Below are positions 29,613 through 39,031 of a stretch of DNA of 64,000 bases, piece after piece. Within the stretch, counting starts at the first letter, position 1; every line of letters starts with the position of its first letter. The stretch is taken from assembly GCF_030388665.1 (NCBI RefSeq), contig NZ_CP128846.1, positions 8,900,001 to 8,964,000 of the forward strand, written 5' to 3'. The stretch comes from Streptomyces flavofungini. GTDB taxonomy: Bacteria > Actinomycetota > Actinomycetes > Streptomycetales > Streptomycetaceae. The notes under the pieces are model-generated. The model did not search any database, had not been told where the DNA came from, and saw only the letters and a program-made list of their open reading frames with translations. The position numbers were made by a program, and so were the translations under genes.

Positions 29613-30332
29613 TCAGTGGCCCTCGGCCAGCCGCTCGCGGAGCCACTGCTCGACCTCGCCGACGTGCGCCGCGGCTGCGACCCGGGCGGCTTCCGGGTCC
29701 CGGGCGACCAACGCCCGGTGGATGCGGGCGTGTTCGTGGCGCGTGCGCTCGATGGCGCCCTCTTCCTGGTGGCCGCGCCGGACCCGGGTGCGGAAGGTGC
29801 GGGAGGAGAGTCCGTCCAGGACGGCGGCCATGGTGTCGTTGCCCGCGGCTTCGTTGATCGCCCGGTGGAAGGCGACGTCGTGGGCGAGGATCTCCTCGGT
29901 GTCGTCGGTGGCGTCCATGGCCCTCAGGTGCCGCTCGACCTCGGTGAGCTGGTCGGCGTCGATGCGGGCCGCCGCCAAGGCCGCCGTGGTGGATTCCAAC
30001 ACCTTGCGGATCTCCAGAAGTTCGACCATCTGCGGGCCTCGGGAGAGGTCGGCGACGACGCCGAAGGACTCCAGGAGGTCACCGGCGGCGAGCTGGGTGA
30101 CGTACACCCCGGATCCGTGCCGTGCCTCCAGGGCGCCCATGAAGGTCAGCGCGCGCACGGCCTCGCGCATGGAGCTGCGCGACACTCCGAGCTGGACCGC
30201 CAAGTCCCGTTCCGTGGGAAGGCGTTGGCCGGGATCGAGCAGCCCGTCGGCGATCATCGCCTTGATCTGGTCGATGGCGCGCTGTGTCACAGTGCCCTTC
30301 TGCGGGGCGGTGCGCACGTCCAGATCCTCCAC
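29613..30332 (-). CDS. GntR-family (FadR/FCD) transcriptional regulator
   Basis: GTG 30332 follows GGAGGG; 239 residues. The winged HTH (about 15-75) reads LPTERDLAVQLGVSRSSMREAVRAL and GSGVYV. The C-terminal FCD domain has the metal-type residues D and H in LAHDVAFHRAINEAAGN, and HEHARIHRAL. It is divergent from a sugar-type substrate-binding lipoprotein gene and likely controls it. FCD regulators usually sense organic or sugar acids. Confidence 0.92.
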   Translation of the reverse strand: MEDLDVRTAPQKGTVTQRAIDQIKAMIADGLLDPGQRLPTERDLAVQLGVSRSSMREAVRALTFMGALEARHGSGVYVTQLAAGDLLESFGVVADLSRGPQMVELLEIRKVLESTTAALAAARIDADQLTEVERHLRAMDATDDTEEILAHDVAFHRAINEAAGNDTMAAVLDGLSSRTFRTRVRRGHQEEGAIERTRHEHARIHRALVARDPEAARVAAAAHVGEVEQWLRERLAEGH

Positions 30333-30536: not shown

Positions 30537-31595
30537 GTGGCCAGAACAACCCTCGGGATCAGAGCACGGGCAGTGCGCGTGGCGGCAGTTGGCGCCAGTG
30601 CCACCCTGGTGCTCTCGGCCTGTGGCAGCACGAATGACACCGCGGGATCCGGTGGCGGGGGCGGTGGTGAAGGCAAGGTCGGCGTGATTCTGCCGCTGCT
30701 GACCTCGCCGTTCTGGCAGTCGTACAACGACTACGTGCCGAAGATGGCGAAGTCCGAGGACGTCGACGCGCTGAAGACCGTGAACTCCAACAGTGATCCG
30801 GCGAAGCAGATAACGGACATCAACAGCCAGCTCGACCAGGGAGTGAAGGGCCTGATCGTCGCCCCCATCGACAGCGCCGCGATCTCGGCGGGCCTGGACC
30901 AGGCGGAGCGCAAGGGCGTGCCGGTGGTCGCCGTCGACGTGGCGCCGGAGAAGGGCAAGGTCGCGATGGTCGTGCGCGCGAACAACCGCGCGTACGGGCA
31001 GAAGGCCTGCGACTACCTCGGCGACGAGATCAAGAGCGGAAAGGTCGTCCAGATCATGGGCGACCTGGCCTCCGTGAACGGCCGGGACCGGTCCAAGGCC
31101 TTCCGCCAGTGCATGAAGGACAAGTACCCGAAGGTCAAGGTCCTGGAGATTCCCGCGAAGTGGGAGTCGGACGCCGCCGCGTCCAAGCTGGACACGCTCC
31201 TGAACAGCAACCCCGACATCAAGGGCATCTACATGCAGGCGGGCGGCGTCTACCTCGCGCCGACGCTGCAGACCCTCAAGAAGAAGGGGATGCTGAAGAA
31301 GGCGGGCACGAAGGGCCACATCACGATCGTGTCGAACGACGGCATCCCGCAGGAGTTCGAGGCGATCAGCAAGGGCGAGATCGACGCGACCGTCTCCCAG
31401 CCCGCCGACGCGTACGCGAAGTACGGCATGTTCTACATCAAGGCGGCGATGAACGGGGAGAAGTTCAAGCCCGGACCCACCGATCACGGCTCGACGATCG
31501 TGCGGCTGCCCAACGGCATGCTGGAGGACCAGCTCTCCGCGCCGCTGGTGACCAAGGAGAACGTGGGGCTGTTCCACGAGGGTGCTGATCAGTGA
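30537..31595 (+). CDS. Sugar ABC transporter substrate-binding lipoprotein, orphan
   Basis: GTG 30537, 352 residues. The lipobox LSAC (Cys29) indicates membrane anchoring. The periplasmic-binding-protein type 1 (ribose-binding-like) fold is clear: VGVILPLLTSPFWQSYNDYV, GVKGLIVAPIDSAA, GVPVVAVDVAP, ITIVSNDGIPQEFEAI. Such genes are normally followed by an ATPase and a permease. Here the gene is followed by repeats and an ECF sigma gene, so its transporter partners are missing locally. Confidence 0.9.
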   Translation: MARTTLGIRARAVRVAAVGASATLVLSACGSTNDTAGSGGGGGGEGKVGVILPLLTSPFWQSYNDYVPKMAKSEDVDALKTVNSNSDPAKQITDINSQLDQGVKGLIVAPIDSAAISAGLDQAERKGVPVVAVDVAPEKGKVAMVVRANNRAYGQKACDYLGDEIKSGKVVQIMGDLASVNGRDRSKAFRQCMKDKYPKVKVLEIPAKWESDAAASKLDTLLNSNPDIKGIYMQAGGVYLAPTLQTLKKKGMLKKAGTKGHITIVSNDGIPQEFEAISKGEIDATVSQPADAYAKYGMFYIKAAMNGEKFKPGPTDHGSTIVRLPNGMLEDQLSAPLVTKENVGLFHEGADQ

Positions 31596-31650: not shown

Positions 31651-31699
31651 CTGGTGACTGGTGACTGGTGACTGGTGACTGGTGACTGGTGACTGGTGA
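31651..31699. repeat. Seven tandem copies of CTGGTGA
   Basis: An exact heptanucleotide array (7 x 7 = 49 bases) 56 bases after the binding-protein stop. It is bounded by TGATCAC (31641-31647) and GTGATCAC (31697-31704), and preceded by two copies of a 14-base TGATCGCCGGTCTG unit. It lies upstream of the sigma-CAP gene. Copy number could vary by slippage. Confidence 0.85.
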
Positions 31700-31845
31700 T
31701 CACTGATCCGCGACCGGTTGTGGTCGAGTCCGTCCCGTCCGCTGCTCGTTCTTTGTCACTCCTGTTTCTGTTATCTCGCCCCCGGCCTCGGGTCTCCCTA
31801 GTGTCGGACGGAAAATGCGGGGGACAGGAAAGGACGTGGGCGGCT

Positions 31846-33735
31846 GTGACAGCGACTGAGGAGCACCGTGCCGCGGTGGTCGAGGCGGCGCGGCAGGGTG
31901 CCCTGTGGGCGCAGGACGAGCTGGTCACCGAGTATCTGCCGCTGGTGTACAACATCGTGGGCCGGGCGCTGAACGGGCACGCGGACGTCGACGACGTGGT
32001 GCAGGAGACGATGATCCGCGCGCTCGGCTCGCTCGGCTCGCTCCAGGACCCGCGCAGCTTCCGGTCCTGGCTGGTCGCGATCGCGATGAACCAGATCCGC
32101 GGGCACTGGCGCAAGCAGCAGGCCGCACCCGTGGGCTCCGGGCTCCAGGACGCGTACGACGTGGCCGACCCGGGCGCCGACTTCGTGGACCTGACGATCC
32201 TGCGCCTTGGCCTTGAGGGGCAGCGGCGGGAGGCGGCCGAGGCCACCCGCTGGCTGGACACCGACGACCGCGCGCTGCTTTCGCTGTGGTGGCTGGAGGC
32301 GGCGGGCGAGCTGAGCCGTGCCGACGTCGCCACCGCCATGTGTCTGTCGCCGCAGCACACGGCTGTGCGTGTGCAACGCATGAAGGCGCAGCTTGAGACC
32401 GCTCGCCTGGTCGTGCGGGCGCTGTCCGCGCAGCCGTCGTGCGCGGGGCTCGCCTCGGTGCTCGGAGTCTGGGACGGCCATCCGTCCGGGCTGTGGCGCA
32501 AGCGCATCGCCCGGCATGTGCGGGACTGCACGGCCTGCTCCGGGTACGAGGCGGGTCTGGTCCCGGCCGAGGGGCTGCTGGTGGGCCTCGGTCTTGTGCC
32601 GGTGGCGCTTGCCGGGCTCGCGGGGCTTGCCGCGCTGGGGCGTGGCGGGGCTCCGGGCATGGGACTCGGCCATGGTGGCGATGTCGCATACGGTGCGGAA
32701 TCGGGCCATGGGTCGGACTTCGTCCAGGCGGCGGACCTGGCCCAGGGTGCTGGCTCGGCCTATGGCGCGGACTCGGCTCAGGGTTGGGGTCCGGTCCATG
32801 GCGCGGACTCGGCGCACAGCGTGGGCTCGGTCTACGGCGCGGAGTCGGCTCACGGCGTGGGCTCGGTCTACGGCGCGGAGTCGGCTCACGGCGTGGGCTC
32901 GGTCTACGGCGCGGAGTCGACTCAGGGCGTGGGCTCGGCTTACGGCGCCGACGTGCCCGCCGACGCCACCTCCGTCCTCGCCACCGTCGGCGAGGCCCCG
33001 CCCCCCGGCCCTCGCAGCCACCGCCGCGAGGGCCGAATAGCCAAGCGGCGGCGCGCCACCGTCCTCGCTGCCGCCGCCGTCGTACTCGTCACCGGAGGGA
33101 CGATGGCGACCCTGAACCTGCTGCCGGGCGACGGTGAGGACGACAAGGCGACCTCCGCGGCCGACAAGGAGCCCGAGGCGTCCACCGCCCCCGAGAAGTC
33201 GCCCACCCCCACCCCCACCCCGTCCTCCCCGTCGCGCAAGCCGAAGGCGAAGCCGAGCAAGTCCGAGGCGCCCGAGCCCAAGCCCTCGCGCACGAAGAAG
33301 CCCGCCCCGAAACCGCCCAGGACCGAGGCGCCGAAGCCCAGGACCACCCCGCCCGCGGCCCCCGCGAACACCACGGCCGAGAAGGTCCTGGCCCTGGTCA
33401 ACACCGAGCGGGCGGAGGCTGGTTGCCGTCCCGTGAAGCTGGACAGCAGGCTGTCGCGGGCCGCCCAGCTCCACAGCGAGGACATGTCCGAGAACGGCTA
33501 CTTCGACCACACCGGCCAGGACGGCCGCTCGTTCGCCGACCGGGCCACGGCCCAGGGCTATCCGTCGCCCGGCGCCGAGAACATCGCCCGCGGCCAGAAC
33601 TCCCCCGACTCCGTGATGCAGTCGTGGATGAACTCGCAGGGACACCGCGAGAACATCCTCAACTGCGACCTCACCACGATGGGCGTCGGCGTGGTCGAGA
33701 AGGACTGGACGTGGACCCAGGTGTTCGGGCGGTAG
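31846..33735 (+). CDS. ECF-type sigma factor fused to a membrane segment and extracellular CAP (SCP/PR-1) domain
   Basis: GTG 31846 gives 629 residues; GTG 31801 is an alternative. Order: sigma region 2 (about 26-85, DVDDVVQETMIRAL), region 4 (about 138-185, SRADVATAMCLSPQHTAVRV), an HxxxCxxC motif (HVRDCTAC) as in zinc-binding anti-sigma domains, a hydrophobic stretch (about 241-264), five and a half 12-residue repeats (301-369), a Lys/Arg-flanked transmembrane helix (about 402-424), a long Pro/Lys/Glu linker, and a C-terminal CAP domain with LHSEDM, AENIA and GHREN. It would link a surface domain to transcription in one chain. The CAP role is unknown. Confidence 0.85.
   Translation: MTATEEHRAAVVEAARQGALWAQDELVTEYLPLVYNIVGRALNGHADVDDVVQETMIRALGSLGSLQDPRSFRSWLVAIAMNQIRGHWRKQQAAPVGSGLQDAYDVADPGADFVDLTILRLGLEGQRREAAEATRWLDTDDRALLSLWWLEAAGELSRADVATAMCLSPQHTAVRVQRMKAQLETARLVVRALSAQPSCAGLASVLGVWDGHPSGLWRKRIARHVRDCTACSGYEAGLVPAEGLLVGLGLVPVALAGLAGLAALGRGGAPGMGLGHGGDVAYGAESGHGSDFVQAADLAQGAGSAYGADSAQGWGPVHGADSAHSVGSVYGAESAHGVGSVYGAESAHGVGSVYGAESTQGVGSAYGADVPADATSVLATVGEAPPPGPRSHRREGRIAKRRRATVLAAAAVVLVTGGTMATLNLLPGDGEDDKATSAADKEPEASTAPEKSPTPTPTPSSPSRKPKAKPSKSEAPEPKPSRTKKPAPKPPRTEAPKPRTTPPAAPANTTAEKVLALVNTERAEAGCRPVKLDSRLSRAAQLHSEDMSENGYFDHTGQDGRSFADRATAQGYPSPGAENIARGQNSPDSVMQSWMNSQGHRENILNCDLTTMGVGVVEKDWTWTQVFGR
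32749..32952 (+). repeat. 36-bp in-frame repeats in the sigma-CAP gene
   Basis: Units encode VGSVYGAESAHG and variants (AGSAYGADSAQG, WGPVHGADSAHS). Copies 32821-32856 and 32857-32892 are identical at DNA level, and the third differs in a few bases. The repeated linker separates the sigma part from the transmembrane helix; unit number may vary among strains. Confidence 0.85.
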
Positions 33736-37441: not shown

Positions 37442-39031
37442 ATGACCTTCGAGACCGCCGAACTACCCACCCAGGAAGGCCAGGTGGCCCGACGAGCGAA
37501 AGGGCGCAGGCGTTCACCTCGCAGAATCGGCACGCTTCTCTCAGCCCTCGCGCTCGCCTCGGGCGCGGGCCTGTCCGCCCCCGCCCCCGAGGCGCGCGCG
37601 GCGGTCGCCCTGGAGCGCGTGAGCGACTTCGGAGCCAACCCCGGGGCCCTGAACATGTACGTGTACCGGCCGACGTCCCCTGTCCGCCGATCCGGCCGTG
37701 GTGGTGGCCCTGCACGGCTGCACCCAGAACGCCCAGCTCTACGCCGACAACTCCGGCCTGACGAAGTTCGCCGACCAGAACGGGTTCCTGCTGGTCTTCG
37801 CCGAGACCACGGCCGCGAACAACCTCAACAAGTGCTTCAACTGGTTCCAGAGCGCCGACACCCGGCGCGGGCAGGGCGAGGTCGCCTCGGTCCGGCAGAT
37901 GGTCGCCAAGGCGGTCTCCGCGTACGGCGCCGACCCCACCCGTACGTATGGTTCATGACGAAGAGCGGCTACGTCTCCGGGGGCTTCGACGCCAACGAGG
38001 ATCAGCTGAGGCCGGACTCCGTGGACGACTTCACCGCCTACCTCGCGGGCGCGACACGGCGCCTGGAGAAGGCGCACGGCATCAGGGTGAAGACGCTCGA
38101 TCCCTTCAACGAGCCCAACACCGACTACTGGAGCACCGTGCTCGGCCCCGACGGGCAGCCCACAGGCGGTCGCCAGGAGGGCGCGCACATGGGCCCCGGG
38201 CTGCAGAGCGACGTCATCCGCTCGCTGGCCACGGCGCTCAGGAAGTCCAAGACCCGCGCGAAGATCTCCGCGATGGACGAGACCAACCCCACGAAATTCG
38301 CCGAGAACTGGAATTCCTACCCGCAGGAGGTGCGGCGCCTGGTCGACCAACTCAACGTCCACACCTACGGCACCGCGGGCCGCACCACGGTGCGCGACCT
38401 GGCGAAGGCGGCGGGCAAGCCACTGTGGATGAGCGAGGTCGAGGGGGAGTGGGACCCGGACGGGCAGGACTTCGAGGACATGAGGTCGGGCCTCGGCCTG
38501 GCCCAGCACATGATCGACGACCTGCGTGAACTGGAGCCCAGGGCCTGGGTGTTCTGGCAGCCCGTCGAGGACTACAACAACATGAGGCCCGGCGGTGAGA
38601 GCGCCAAGGGCGGCAACTGGGGCAGCATCCAGCTCCCCTTCGACTGCACGGCCGACGACACCCTGAAGACCTGCCCCATCAGGACCAACACCAAGTTCGA
38701 CACCGCCCGCAACTTCACCCACCACATCCGTCCGGGAGACCGTCTGATCACGGTGGACGAAGCCTCCAGCGCGGCGGCGCTCGACGCGGACGGCGAGGGC
38801 GCGACGGTCGTCCACGTCAACTCCACCGGGGCGGAGCGGGCGGTGACGGTGGACCTGTCGAAGTTCGGGTCCGTCAGCCCGAACGCGACCGTGACGCCGG
38901 TCGTGACCAGCGCGGACGGCGCACTCGAACGCCAGGACCCGGTCCCGGTCGCCGCCGGGCGCGCCACGGTGACAGTCCCCGCCCAGTCGGTCACCAGCTT
39001 CGTCGTGGACGGAGTCTCCGGCCGTAGTTGA
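37442..39031 (+). pseudogene. Chimera of a PHB-depolymerase/feruloyl-esterase start and a GH30-type galactanase end
   Basis: The open frame of 529 codons is a patchwork. Codons 1-80 give a signal peptide and the esterase start (FGANPGALNMYVYRPTS). A one-base shift near 37680 moves the esterase text (VVVALHGCTQNAQLYADNSG, FNWFQSADTRRGQGE) to another frame, where it ends at 37950 before the catalytic GLSAGG. From about 37950 the first frame carries a GH30-like enzyme: WFMTKSGYVSGG, DPFNEPNTDYW (acid/base Glu), MSEVEGEWDP (nucleophile Glu) and a C-terminal beta-sandwich. About 150 N-terminal residues of that enzyme are lost. The chimera might still be translated, but the barrel is incomplete. 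Confidence 0.75.

Follow-up and report, generated by a model that had tools for sequence, protein, structure and literature searches.

A sigma factor fused to a CAP/PR-1 domain

On the forward strand of the window, the whole 64,000-nucleotide stretch of Streptomyces flavofungini DNA that was analysed, a single open reading frame at 31846..33735, with a GTG start and its stop codon at 33733-33735, encodes a 629-aa protein that runs from an ECF sigma factor through a zinc-type anti-sigma segment, a membrane helix and a proline-rich stalk to a CAP/PR-1 domain. Region 2 of an ECF (group IV) sigma-70 factor occupies residues 26-92 (31921..32121), matching PF04542 with 60.6 bits against a cut-off of 24 (E 1.3e-16). 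The region 4 helices at about residues 112-194 (32179..32427) were identified from TIGR02937, which scored above its cut-off over residues 22-185, from the helices of the structure model and from a sigmaE fold match over residues 4-189, with the Pfam model for region 4 giving no match at E<=1 in the window protein. Downstream lie a zinc anti-sigma-like segment, C199-X24-H224-X3-C228-X2-C231 (32440..32538), a near-invariant hydrophobic stretch, LVPAEGLLVGLGLVPVALAGL (32557..32619), a linker encoded by a 36-bp tandem repeat (32752..32952) and a membrane helix at residues 405-423 (33058..33114), placed by hydropathy and positive-inside bias and with RREGRIAKRRR just before it. Beyond the helix, direct reading of the sequence gives a Pro/Lys/Ser-rich stalk at about residues 430-505 (33133..33360), followed by the CAP/PR-1 (SCP) domain at residues 515-626 (33388..33723), which carries C527 and C607 and matches PF00188 with 89.7 bits against a cut-off of 21.1 (E 3.1e-25).

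The fusion of sigma factor, membrane helix and CAP domain that an earlier note on this DNA had proposed is real, being encoded by one frame and kept in the family, with both domains present in 119 of 120 proteins among the matches listed (the window's own counted). Among the 119 aligned members from these matches, high conservation is seen in the two sigma regions, in the zinc segment and over PAEGLLVGLGLVPV, and the repeat linker and the stalk are variable or gapped. The repeat linker was rejected as a functional part, being mostly gap across the family alignment, and the weight that the note had placed on it was not borne out. Translation from a GTG at 31801 was also rejected because this codon lies only 4 nt after the -10 box of the predicted promoter (see below), where the transcript would be expected to start or upstream of that point; homologues among the matches listed mostly begin at the equivalent of 31846 rather than 31801.

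For a wider search, residues 1-258, the part referred to here as the chassis, were aligned from five sequences and compared with one genome per species, and the best 80 of 204 loci were taken. Among the 58 proteins drawn from these 80 loci, C199, H224, C228 and C231 are invariant (58/58), with C199 kept at no less than 90% in another alignment (n=35), and the segment is modelled with a pLDDT of about 92-97. HX3CX2C with an upstream ligand, which we take to be the zinc anti-sigma (ZAS) motif, is present in the window protein. The Pfam family zf-HC2 (PF13490) fell below its cut-off in three of eight pieces (E 0.04-0.11) and was not reported for the window's own piece, and most VIA fold-match rows for the segment end near residue 189-199. 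The segment would hold the fused ECF sigma factor inactive, presumably in a zinc-dependent manner.

The two hydrophobic stretches are equal in mean hydropathy (2.05 each) and differ in their flanks. Around residues 405-423 the mean charge is +7.0 before and -2.1 after, a bias of the same sign in 119/119 members among the matches listed, and therefore the sigma factor is placed inside the cell and the CAP domain outside. The first stretch has flanking mean charges of -1.1 and -1.0, without bias, and is modelled at low pLDDT without a long helix; on these grounds it was assigned to the anti-sigma region, of which it is probably a part, rather than to a second spanning helix. Were both stretches to cross the membrane, as their matching hydropathy would allow, the CAP domain would lie in the cytoplasm. 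This arrangement is very unlikely, as a segment with a strong positive charge (net +5 to +10) would then sit outside in all 119 listed members, and in the window protein one proline, P252, falls within the first stretch and another, P240, immediately precedes it. CAP domains are, moreover, usually secreted, and the cysteine pair of the domain is kept as a pair: both cysteines are present in 22 and both absent in 4 of 26 CAP tails from the best 80 of 204 loci, as expected of an extracytoplasmic disulphide.

Interchangeable tails on a common chassis

Tails were counted in 57 complete relatives and the window protein. Left out of the count were loci at a contig end (L004, L010, L017, L019-L021, L040), those with a broken or short tail (L024, L051, L052, L057, L066) and short matches (L070-L080); L043, L058, L065 and L067 were omitted from alignment A4 alone. 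Among these 58 proteins from the best 80 of 204 loci, Pfam identified 26 CAP, 12 Glyco_hydro_cc (PF11790, presumably CAZy GH128), 10 AbfB and four right-handed beta-helix tails, and the remaining six share one unnamed tail for which the structure model reached a mean pLDDT of 48.9. The beta-helix tails are pectate-lyase-like and are found at L065, L053, L055 and L067, with a further one at L177. Hosts among the best 80 loci include Streptomyces, Kitasatospora, Actinoplanes, Actinomadura, Nonomuraea, Micromonospora and Lentzea. By sequence comparison, then, the sigma/zinc part is a chassis for at least five kinds of tail, and the lone CAP-tailed protein of the earlier note gives way to a modular family of at least five tail kinds with a shared promoter and candidate target genes. 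Two further loci, L299 and L242, carry tails unmatched by the five tail profiles; that of L299 starts AAFYYPWYPENF and may be a glycosidase.

On a tree of the sigma and zinc parts of the same 58 proteins, tail kind changes seven times, the least possible being four and shuffled tails giving 29.0, and tails therefore go largely by lineage. Counted by kind, the changes are CAP 1, Glyco_hydro_cc 2, AbfB 3, unnamed 2 and beta-helix 3. A second CAP type, marked by PPNDGHR and without the two cysteines, was seen on the chassis at L003, L030, L034 and L060. Since L003 and L030 nest within the other CAP type on this tree, one of the two types appears to have been exchanged for the other.

The conserved site of CAP domains is His/Glu/His, and it is present in the window protein. 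Across the 26 CAP tails from the best 80 of 204 loci, the five scored positions (H, H, E, N, H) are each kept in 24, with His or Glu lost at L005, L016, L022 and L049. Because at least two of the scored residues are missing from the tails of L005, L022 and L049, the comparison suggests that the CAP tail needs binding more than catalysis. The general retention of the site would also suit a protein in which CAP does the work, as an enzyme or binder at the cell surface, and the sigma factor is a vestigial anchor. That reading is hardly credible given the unrelated tails found on the same sigma chassis, a linker and stalk less conserved than the sigma regions and zinc segment, a promoter motif that tracks the chassis across genomes (see below) and the degraded CAP sites of L005, L022 and L049, in which the chassis zinc ligands are kept.

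A shared upstream motif and its candidate targets

The motif TGTTATC-N16/17-GTCTCC was first noticed by reading the regions upstream of the sigma genes and then scored with one mismatch allowed per half within 400 bp. The predicted promoter of the window gene lies at 31769..31797 on the forward strand, with TGTTATC at 31769-31775, a 16-nt spacer and GTCTCC at 31792-31797. The motif was found upstream of 36 of the 58 sigma genes from the best 80 of 204 loci, 62-253 nt before the start codon, compared with an average of 0.2 (maximum 1) for first-order shuffles and three for the reverse strand, and at nine of the 13 box positions a single base occurs in 35 or 36 of the 36 sites. Its distribution by tail in this set was CAP 20/26, Glyco_hydro_cc 10/12, unnamed 6/6, AbfB 0/10 and beta-helix 0/4. 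The beta-helix loci L065, L053, L055 and L067 have no common motif within 400 bp upstream, and L177 has the exact motif. Seven perfect copies of CTGGTGA were noted at 31651-31699 of the window, some 70 bp ahead of the -35 box.

In the 9,362,490 bases of the window's own genome, the exact motif with a 14-18 nt spacing occurs once, at 31769-31797 of the window, and there is a single copy of the chassis (E 1e-153; next match 1e-10). Since the only exact motif thus precedes the sole chassis gene, positive autoregulation of the sigma gene would be the simplest reading, and by motif search the one confident candidate target in this genome is the gene itself. A relaxed scan with 15- and 16-nt spacers gave one further site, with a 15-nt spacer. 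A one-mismatch site was considered as a target and rejected, since it stands at apparent metabolic genes and was judged to be there by chance. Three separate CAP genes were located in the genome (C1:1352562-1353314, 289183 and 2694229), and only that at 289183 has a two-mismatch site, about 345 nt before its start.

The scan was extended to 150 genomes of the same family, of which 123 hold the chassis at E<=1e-30. The exact motif is present in 61 of these 123 and in none of the 27 chassis-free genomes (Fisher p 1.3e-7), with the motif read backwards giving one match in all 150. It could be argued that the two boxes are a site for another regulator of the sigma and secreted-protein genes and not a promoter of this sigma factor, given that an exact copy is missing from 62 of the 123 chassis genomes. 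Such a regulator would, however, have to account for two boxes held 16-17 nt apart, which 36 sigma genes have at the stated distance from their start codons, and for the lack of any exact form in the 27 chassis-free genomes, and is considered unlikely. The promoter reading is followed here.

The exact motif occurs at 110 places in total, of which 104 were typed first and five afterwards, with G114:C11:185113 excluded. Behind the 104 lie 46 chassis, 14 secreted-CAP, 12 thaumatin and nine alginate-lyase genes, seven of a kind termed 'ADVLADR', three ricin-lectin/reprolysin-like genes and 13 untyped ones, the Pfam names being taken from representatives; the five further places precede two chassis genes (the window's own and that of G131) and three CAP genes. 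The label 'secreted' denotes a prediction from N-terminal hydrophobic segments. Proteins of the 'ADVLADR' kind are of secreted type, with ADVLADRDVTL and a weak PATR match, and one untyped target (L166) is a pectinesterase and GH28 protein.

Exported alginate-lyase-like proteins with the motif upstream are encoded at L113, L115, L135, L174, L179, L181, L185 and L189, mostly in genomes with an unnamed-tail sigma factor, and a further one at L100 looks broken. At L171, L176, L178, L184, L190 and L192 there is an exported-looking family of about 700 aa (ADVLADRDVTLTGDT...) with a C-terminal hydrophobic segment and a basic end, in which 5-6 nt separate the -10 box from the start codon as drawn, like the spacing of leaderless messages; the one member scanned gave a weak PATR match.

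The kind of secreted target tends to match the kind of tail, as judged from two sequence comparisons. For the first, tails were typed in 103 of the 123 chassis genomes (135 chassis loci), picked partly for having targets, giving 98 genomes with a typed tail. Among these 98, secreted-CAP targets occur only with CAP tails (10/10, p 0.018; 13/13, p 0.0047 on adding G073, G126 and G137), thaumatin targets only with Glyco_hydro_cc tails (8/8, p 1.5e-4) and alginate-lyase or ADVLADR targets with the unnamed tail in 9/12 genomes (p 1.4e-9). The exceptions with alginate-lyase or ADVLADR targets are G027 and G052, with a CAP tail only, and G083, with an AbfB tail only; G021, whose untyped tail places it outside the 98, also has a target of this sort, and in the thaumatin-target genomes G063 and G130 the tail is lost at a contig end. 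Because the CAP and thaumatin associations follow genus, with thaumatin targets confined to genus g7 and CAP targets found mostly in g14, both may be due in part to shared ancestry. The association of alginate-lyase or ADVLADR targets with the unnamed tail holds within one genus, that of the window, in which the unnamed tail is present in 7/9 genomes with such targets and in 0/17 without (p 5.5e-5). The CAP test in the window's own genus comprised one CAP-target genome (p 0.88), and 54 of the 67 typed CAP-tailed genomes have no secreted-CAP gene bearing the exact motif.

The second comparison used the named loci from the best 80 of 204, chosen without regard to the motif, and about 6 kb around each sigma gene. 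A separate CAP gene was present near 7/25 CAP-tailed loci and 0/32 others (p 0.0018), and a thaumatin gene near 3/12 Glyco_hydro_cc loci and 0/45 others (p 0.0075). Eleven of the 16 matching neighbour genes have the motif at up to two mismatches (shuffles 0.1, reversed pattern 0), with no motif even at two mismatches for the other five. At L039 an exact motif lies between the unnamed-tail sigma gene and an alginate-lyase gene, and at L025 an AbfB-tailed sigma gene and an AbfB gene that diverges from it are separated by a region with a one-mismatch site.

A putative one-protein switch, its relatives and its setting

Taken together, the protein is probably a self-regulating transmembrane switch in one chain, in which CAP senses a signal outside, a cut frees the sigma factor and secreted proteins of the matching kind are induced. 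The ECF sigma factor would be anchored by a single membrane helix, with CAP/PR-1 held outside on the proline-rich stalk. On meeting its extracellular target, CAP would prompt cleavage within or close to the membrane helix and loss of the anti-sigma part, both the release and the identity of the ligand being presumed at this step. The freed sigma factor would then transcribe from TGTTATC-N16/17-GTCTCC promoters, its own gene first, so amplifying its own production, and in relatives would also transcribe secreted-protein genes of the tail's kind. Any targets beyond its own gene in the window's genome are inferred. Computed support comes from the architecture, the topology signal, conservation, the swapped tails, the self-directed promoter motif, the co-occurrence of motif and chassis and the tail-target association. 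The earlier note had suggested a surface signal directly holding or releasing the sigma factor, an idea in keeping with the positive-inside topology, the invariant zinc ligands, the paired CAP cysteines and the self-directed promoter; the release step itself is drawn by analogy from models put forward for comparable fusions and from one such protein described in the literature (PMC8999054; PMC5826349).

A switch of this kind might also work uncut, with a CAP ligand or a zinc or redox change at C199/H224/C228/C231 loosening the anti-sigma part and the sigma factor acting while still bound to the membrane. With sigma and anti-sigma in one chain, cutting is not strictly required, and invariant zinc ligands recall RsrA and ChrR, which are redox-sensing anti-sigma factors. 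This version is possible but rather improbable, as the 33-188 residues that separate the two hydrophobic segments in family members among the matches listed would relay shape changes poorly, and the models described for ECF48, ECF52 and ECF53 proteins invoke proteolysis, with IutY shown to be cut (PMC8999054). Release by cutting is thus retained as the preferred reading.

Sigma/anti-sigma/membrane fusions with carbohydrate-binding or glycosyl hydrolase tails are already known as ECF52 and ECF53 (PMC8999054; PMC5826349; PMC10766802), and ECF48, ECF52 and ECF53 are described as expected to be freed by proteolysis (PMC8999054). For ECF52, represented by SCO4117 of Streptomyces coelicolor, proteolytic release and positive autoregulation have been proposed (PMC5826349). 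Like ECF52 as described, the window protein comes from an actinobacterial host and combines in a single chain an ECF sigma domain with a zinc finger, a membrane helix, a stalk rich in proline and a recognition domain outside the cell. It differs in its tail, which is CAP/PR-1 here and a carbohydrate-binding module (smart00776) in ECF52, no such family being among the Pfam matches of the window protein, and in its promoter, TGTTATC-N16/17-GTCTCC as against CSGYN-17bps-SRHA, with SCO4117 compared by description and not by sequence. A search of the window's genome for an SCO4117 orthologue found HX3CX2C in none of the 12 weaker sigma matches, which does not imply that an orthologue is absent. The fused anti-sigma and membrane part and the zinc finger are common to the ECF53 and ECF48 proteins as described (PMC8999054; PMC10766802), and the predicted glycosyl hydrolase and carbohydrate-binding domains reported for some ECF52/53 proteins resemble the Glyco_hydro_cc and AbfB tails of the chassis relatives (PMC10766802). 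The ECF53 and ECF48 descriptions in these sources hold no CAP tail, no promoter of this sequence and no tail-matched targets (PMC8999054; PMC10766802). In IutY of Pseudomonas putida (ECF243) the sigma factor is likewise fused to a membrane anti-sigma part and its proteolytic release by Prc and RseP has been shown, although it belongs to iron/siderophore cell-surface signalling in a Gram-negative host and no CAP-like domain is given in that description (PMC8999054).

By analogy, the closest functional parallel is the SigI/RsgI system of Clostridium thermocellum. Sigma and anti-sigma are there separate proteins of other families, the anti-sigma protein having an RsgI-type cytoplasmic domain, unlike the sigma and zinc-type anti-sigma parts joined in one chain here, and the RsgI model gave no match among the window protein's Pfam results at E<=1. 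According to the abstracts, which make no mention of CAP tails, the system responds to polysaccharides, with RsgI factors sensing different substrates and being cut by RseP and then ClpXP, and SigI activates predicted promoters of its own gene and of secreted enzymes (PMC4711584; PMC12203970).

Among the papers listed, the literature search found no CAP-tailed sigma factor, no TGTTATC-N16/17-GTCTCC promoter and no tail-matched targets, a CAP tail perhaps figuring in the classifications of Huang 2015 and Casas-Pastor 2021. New here are the swapped-tail chassis, the shared promoter and the co-occurrence of motif and chassis with tail-matched targets. If the reading is true, this would be to our knowledge the first CAP/PR-1 domain with a receptor role in the control of bacterial genes. 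Few streptomycete ECF sigma factors have a known role, with four of the 51 of S. coelicolor described as characterised (PMC5826349). A protein of this kind would place sensor, membrane link, lock and sigma factor in one chain, and its self-directed promoter would provide a direct reporter. With tail and target matched, the extracellular domain of a member would predict its regulon, and binding assays with the tail would therefore be a way to look for ligands; such proteins, if confirmed, would offer synthetic biology natural, swappable outside-in switches.

More tentatively, and with the balance somewhat against it, the family as a whole may pair a swappable outer sensor with secreted proteins that mirror it, CAP tails inducing PR-1-like and Glyco_hydro_cc tails thaumatin-like proteins. 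CAP, the glucanase-like Glyco_hydro_cc and thaumatin-like proteins are taken by us to represent the plant PR-1, PR-2 and PR-5 classes, so that the family could be a bacterial counterpart of that plant response, perhaps directed to fungal or plant walls, a link that is itself presumed.

The neighbours of the window gene have homologues at no more than three of 57 related loci from the best 80 of 204. Upstream, a gene read by eye as a sugar-type ABC substrate-binding lipoprotein (30537-31595) ends about 170 bp before the promoter and is itself preceded by a divergent GntR/FadR-like regulator, also named by eye (29613-30332); no homologue of either was found near the 57 related sigma genes. Downstream, a secreted-looking ORF at 37442-39031 appears by eye to have a depolymerase/esterase-like start and a GH30-like glycosidase over the rest, with apparent frame changes.
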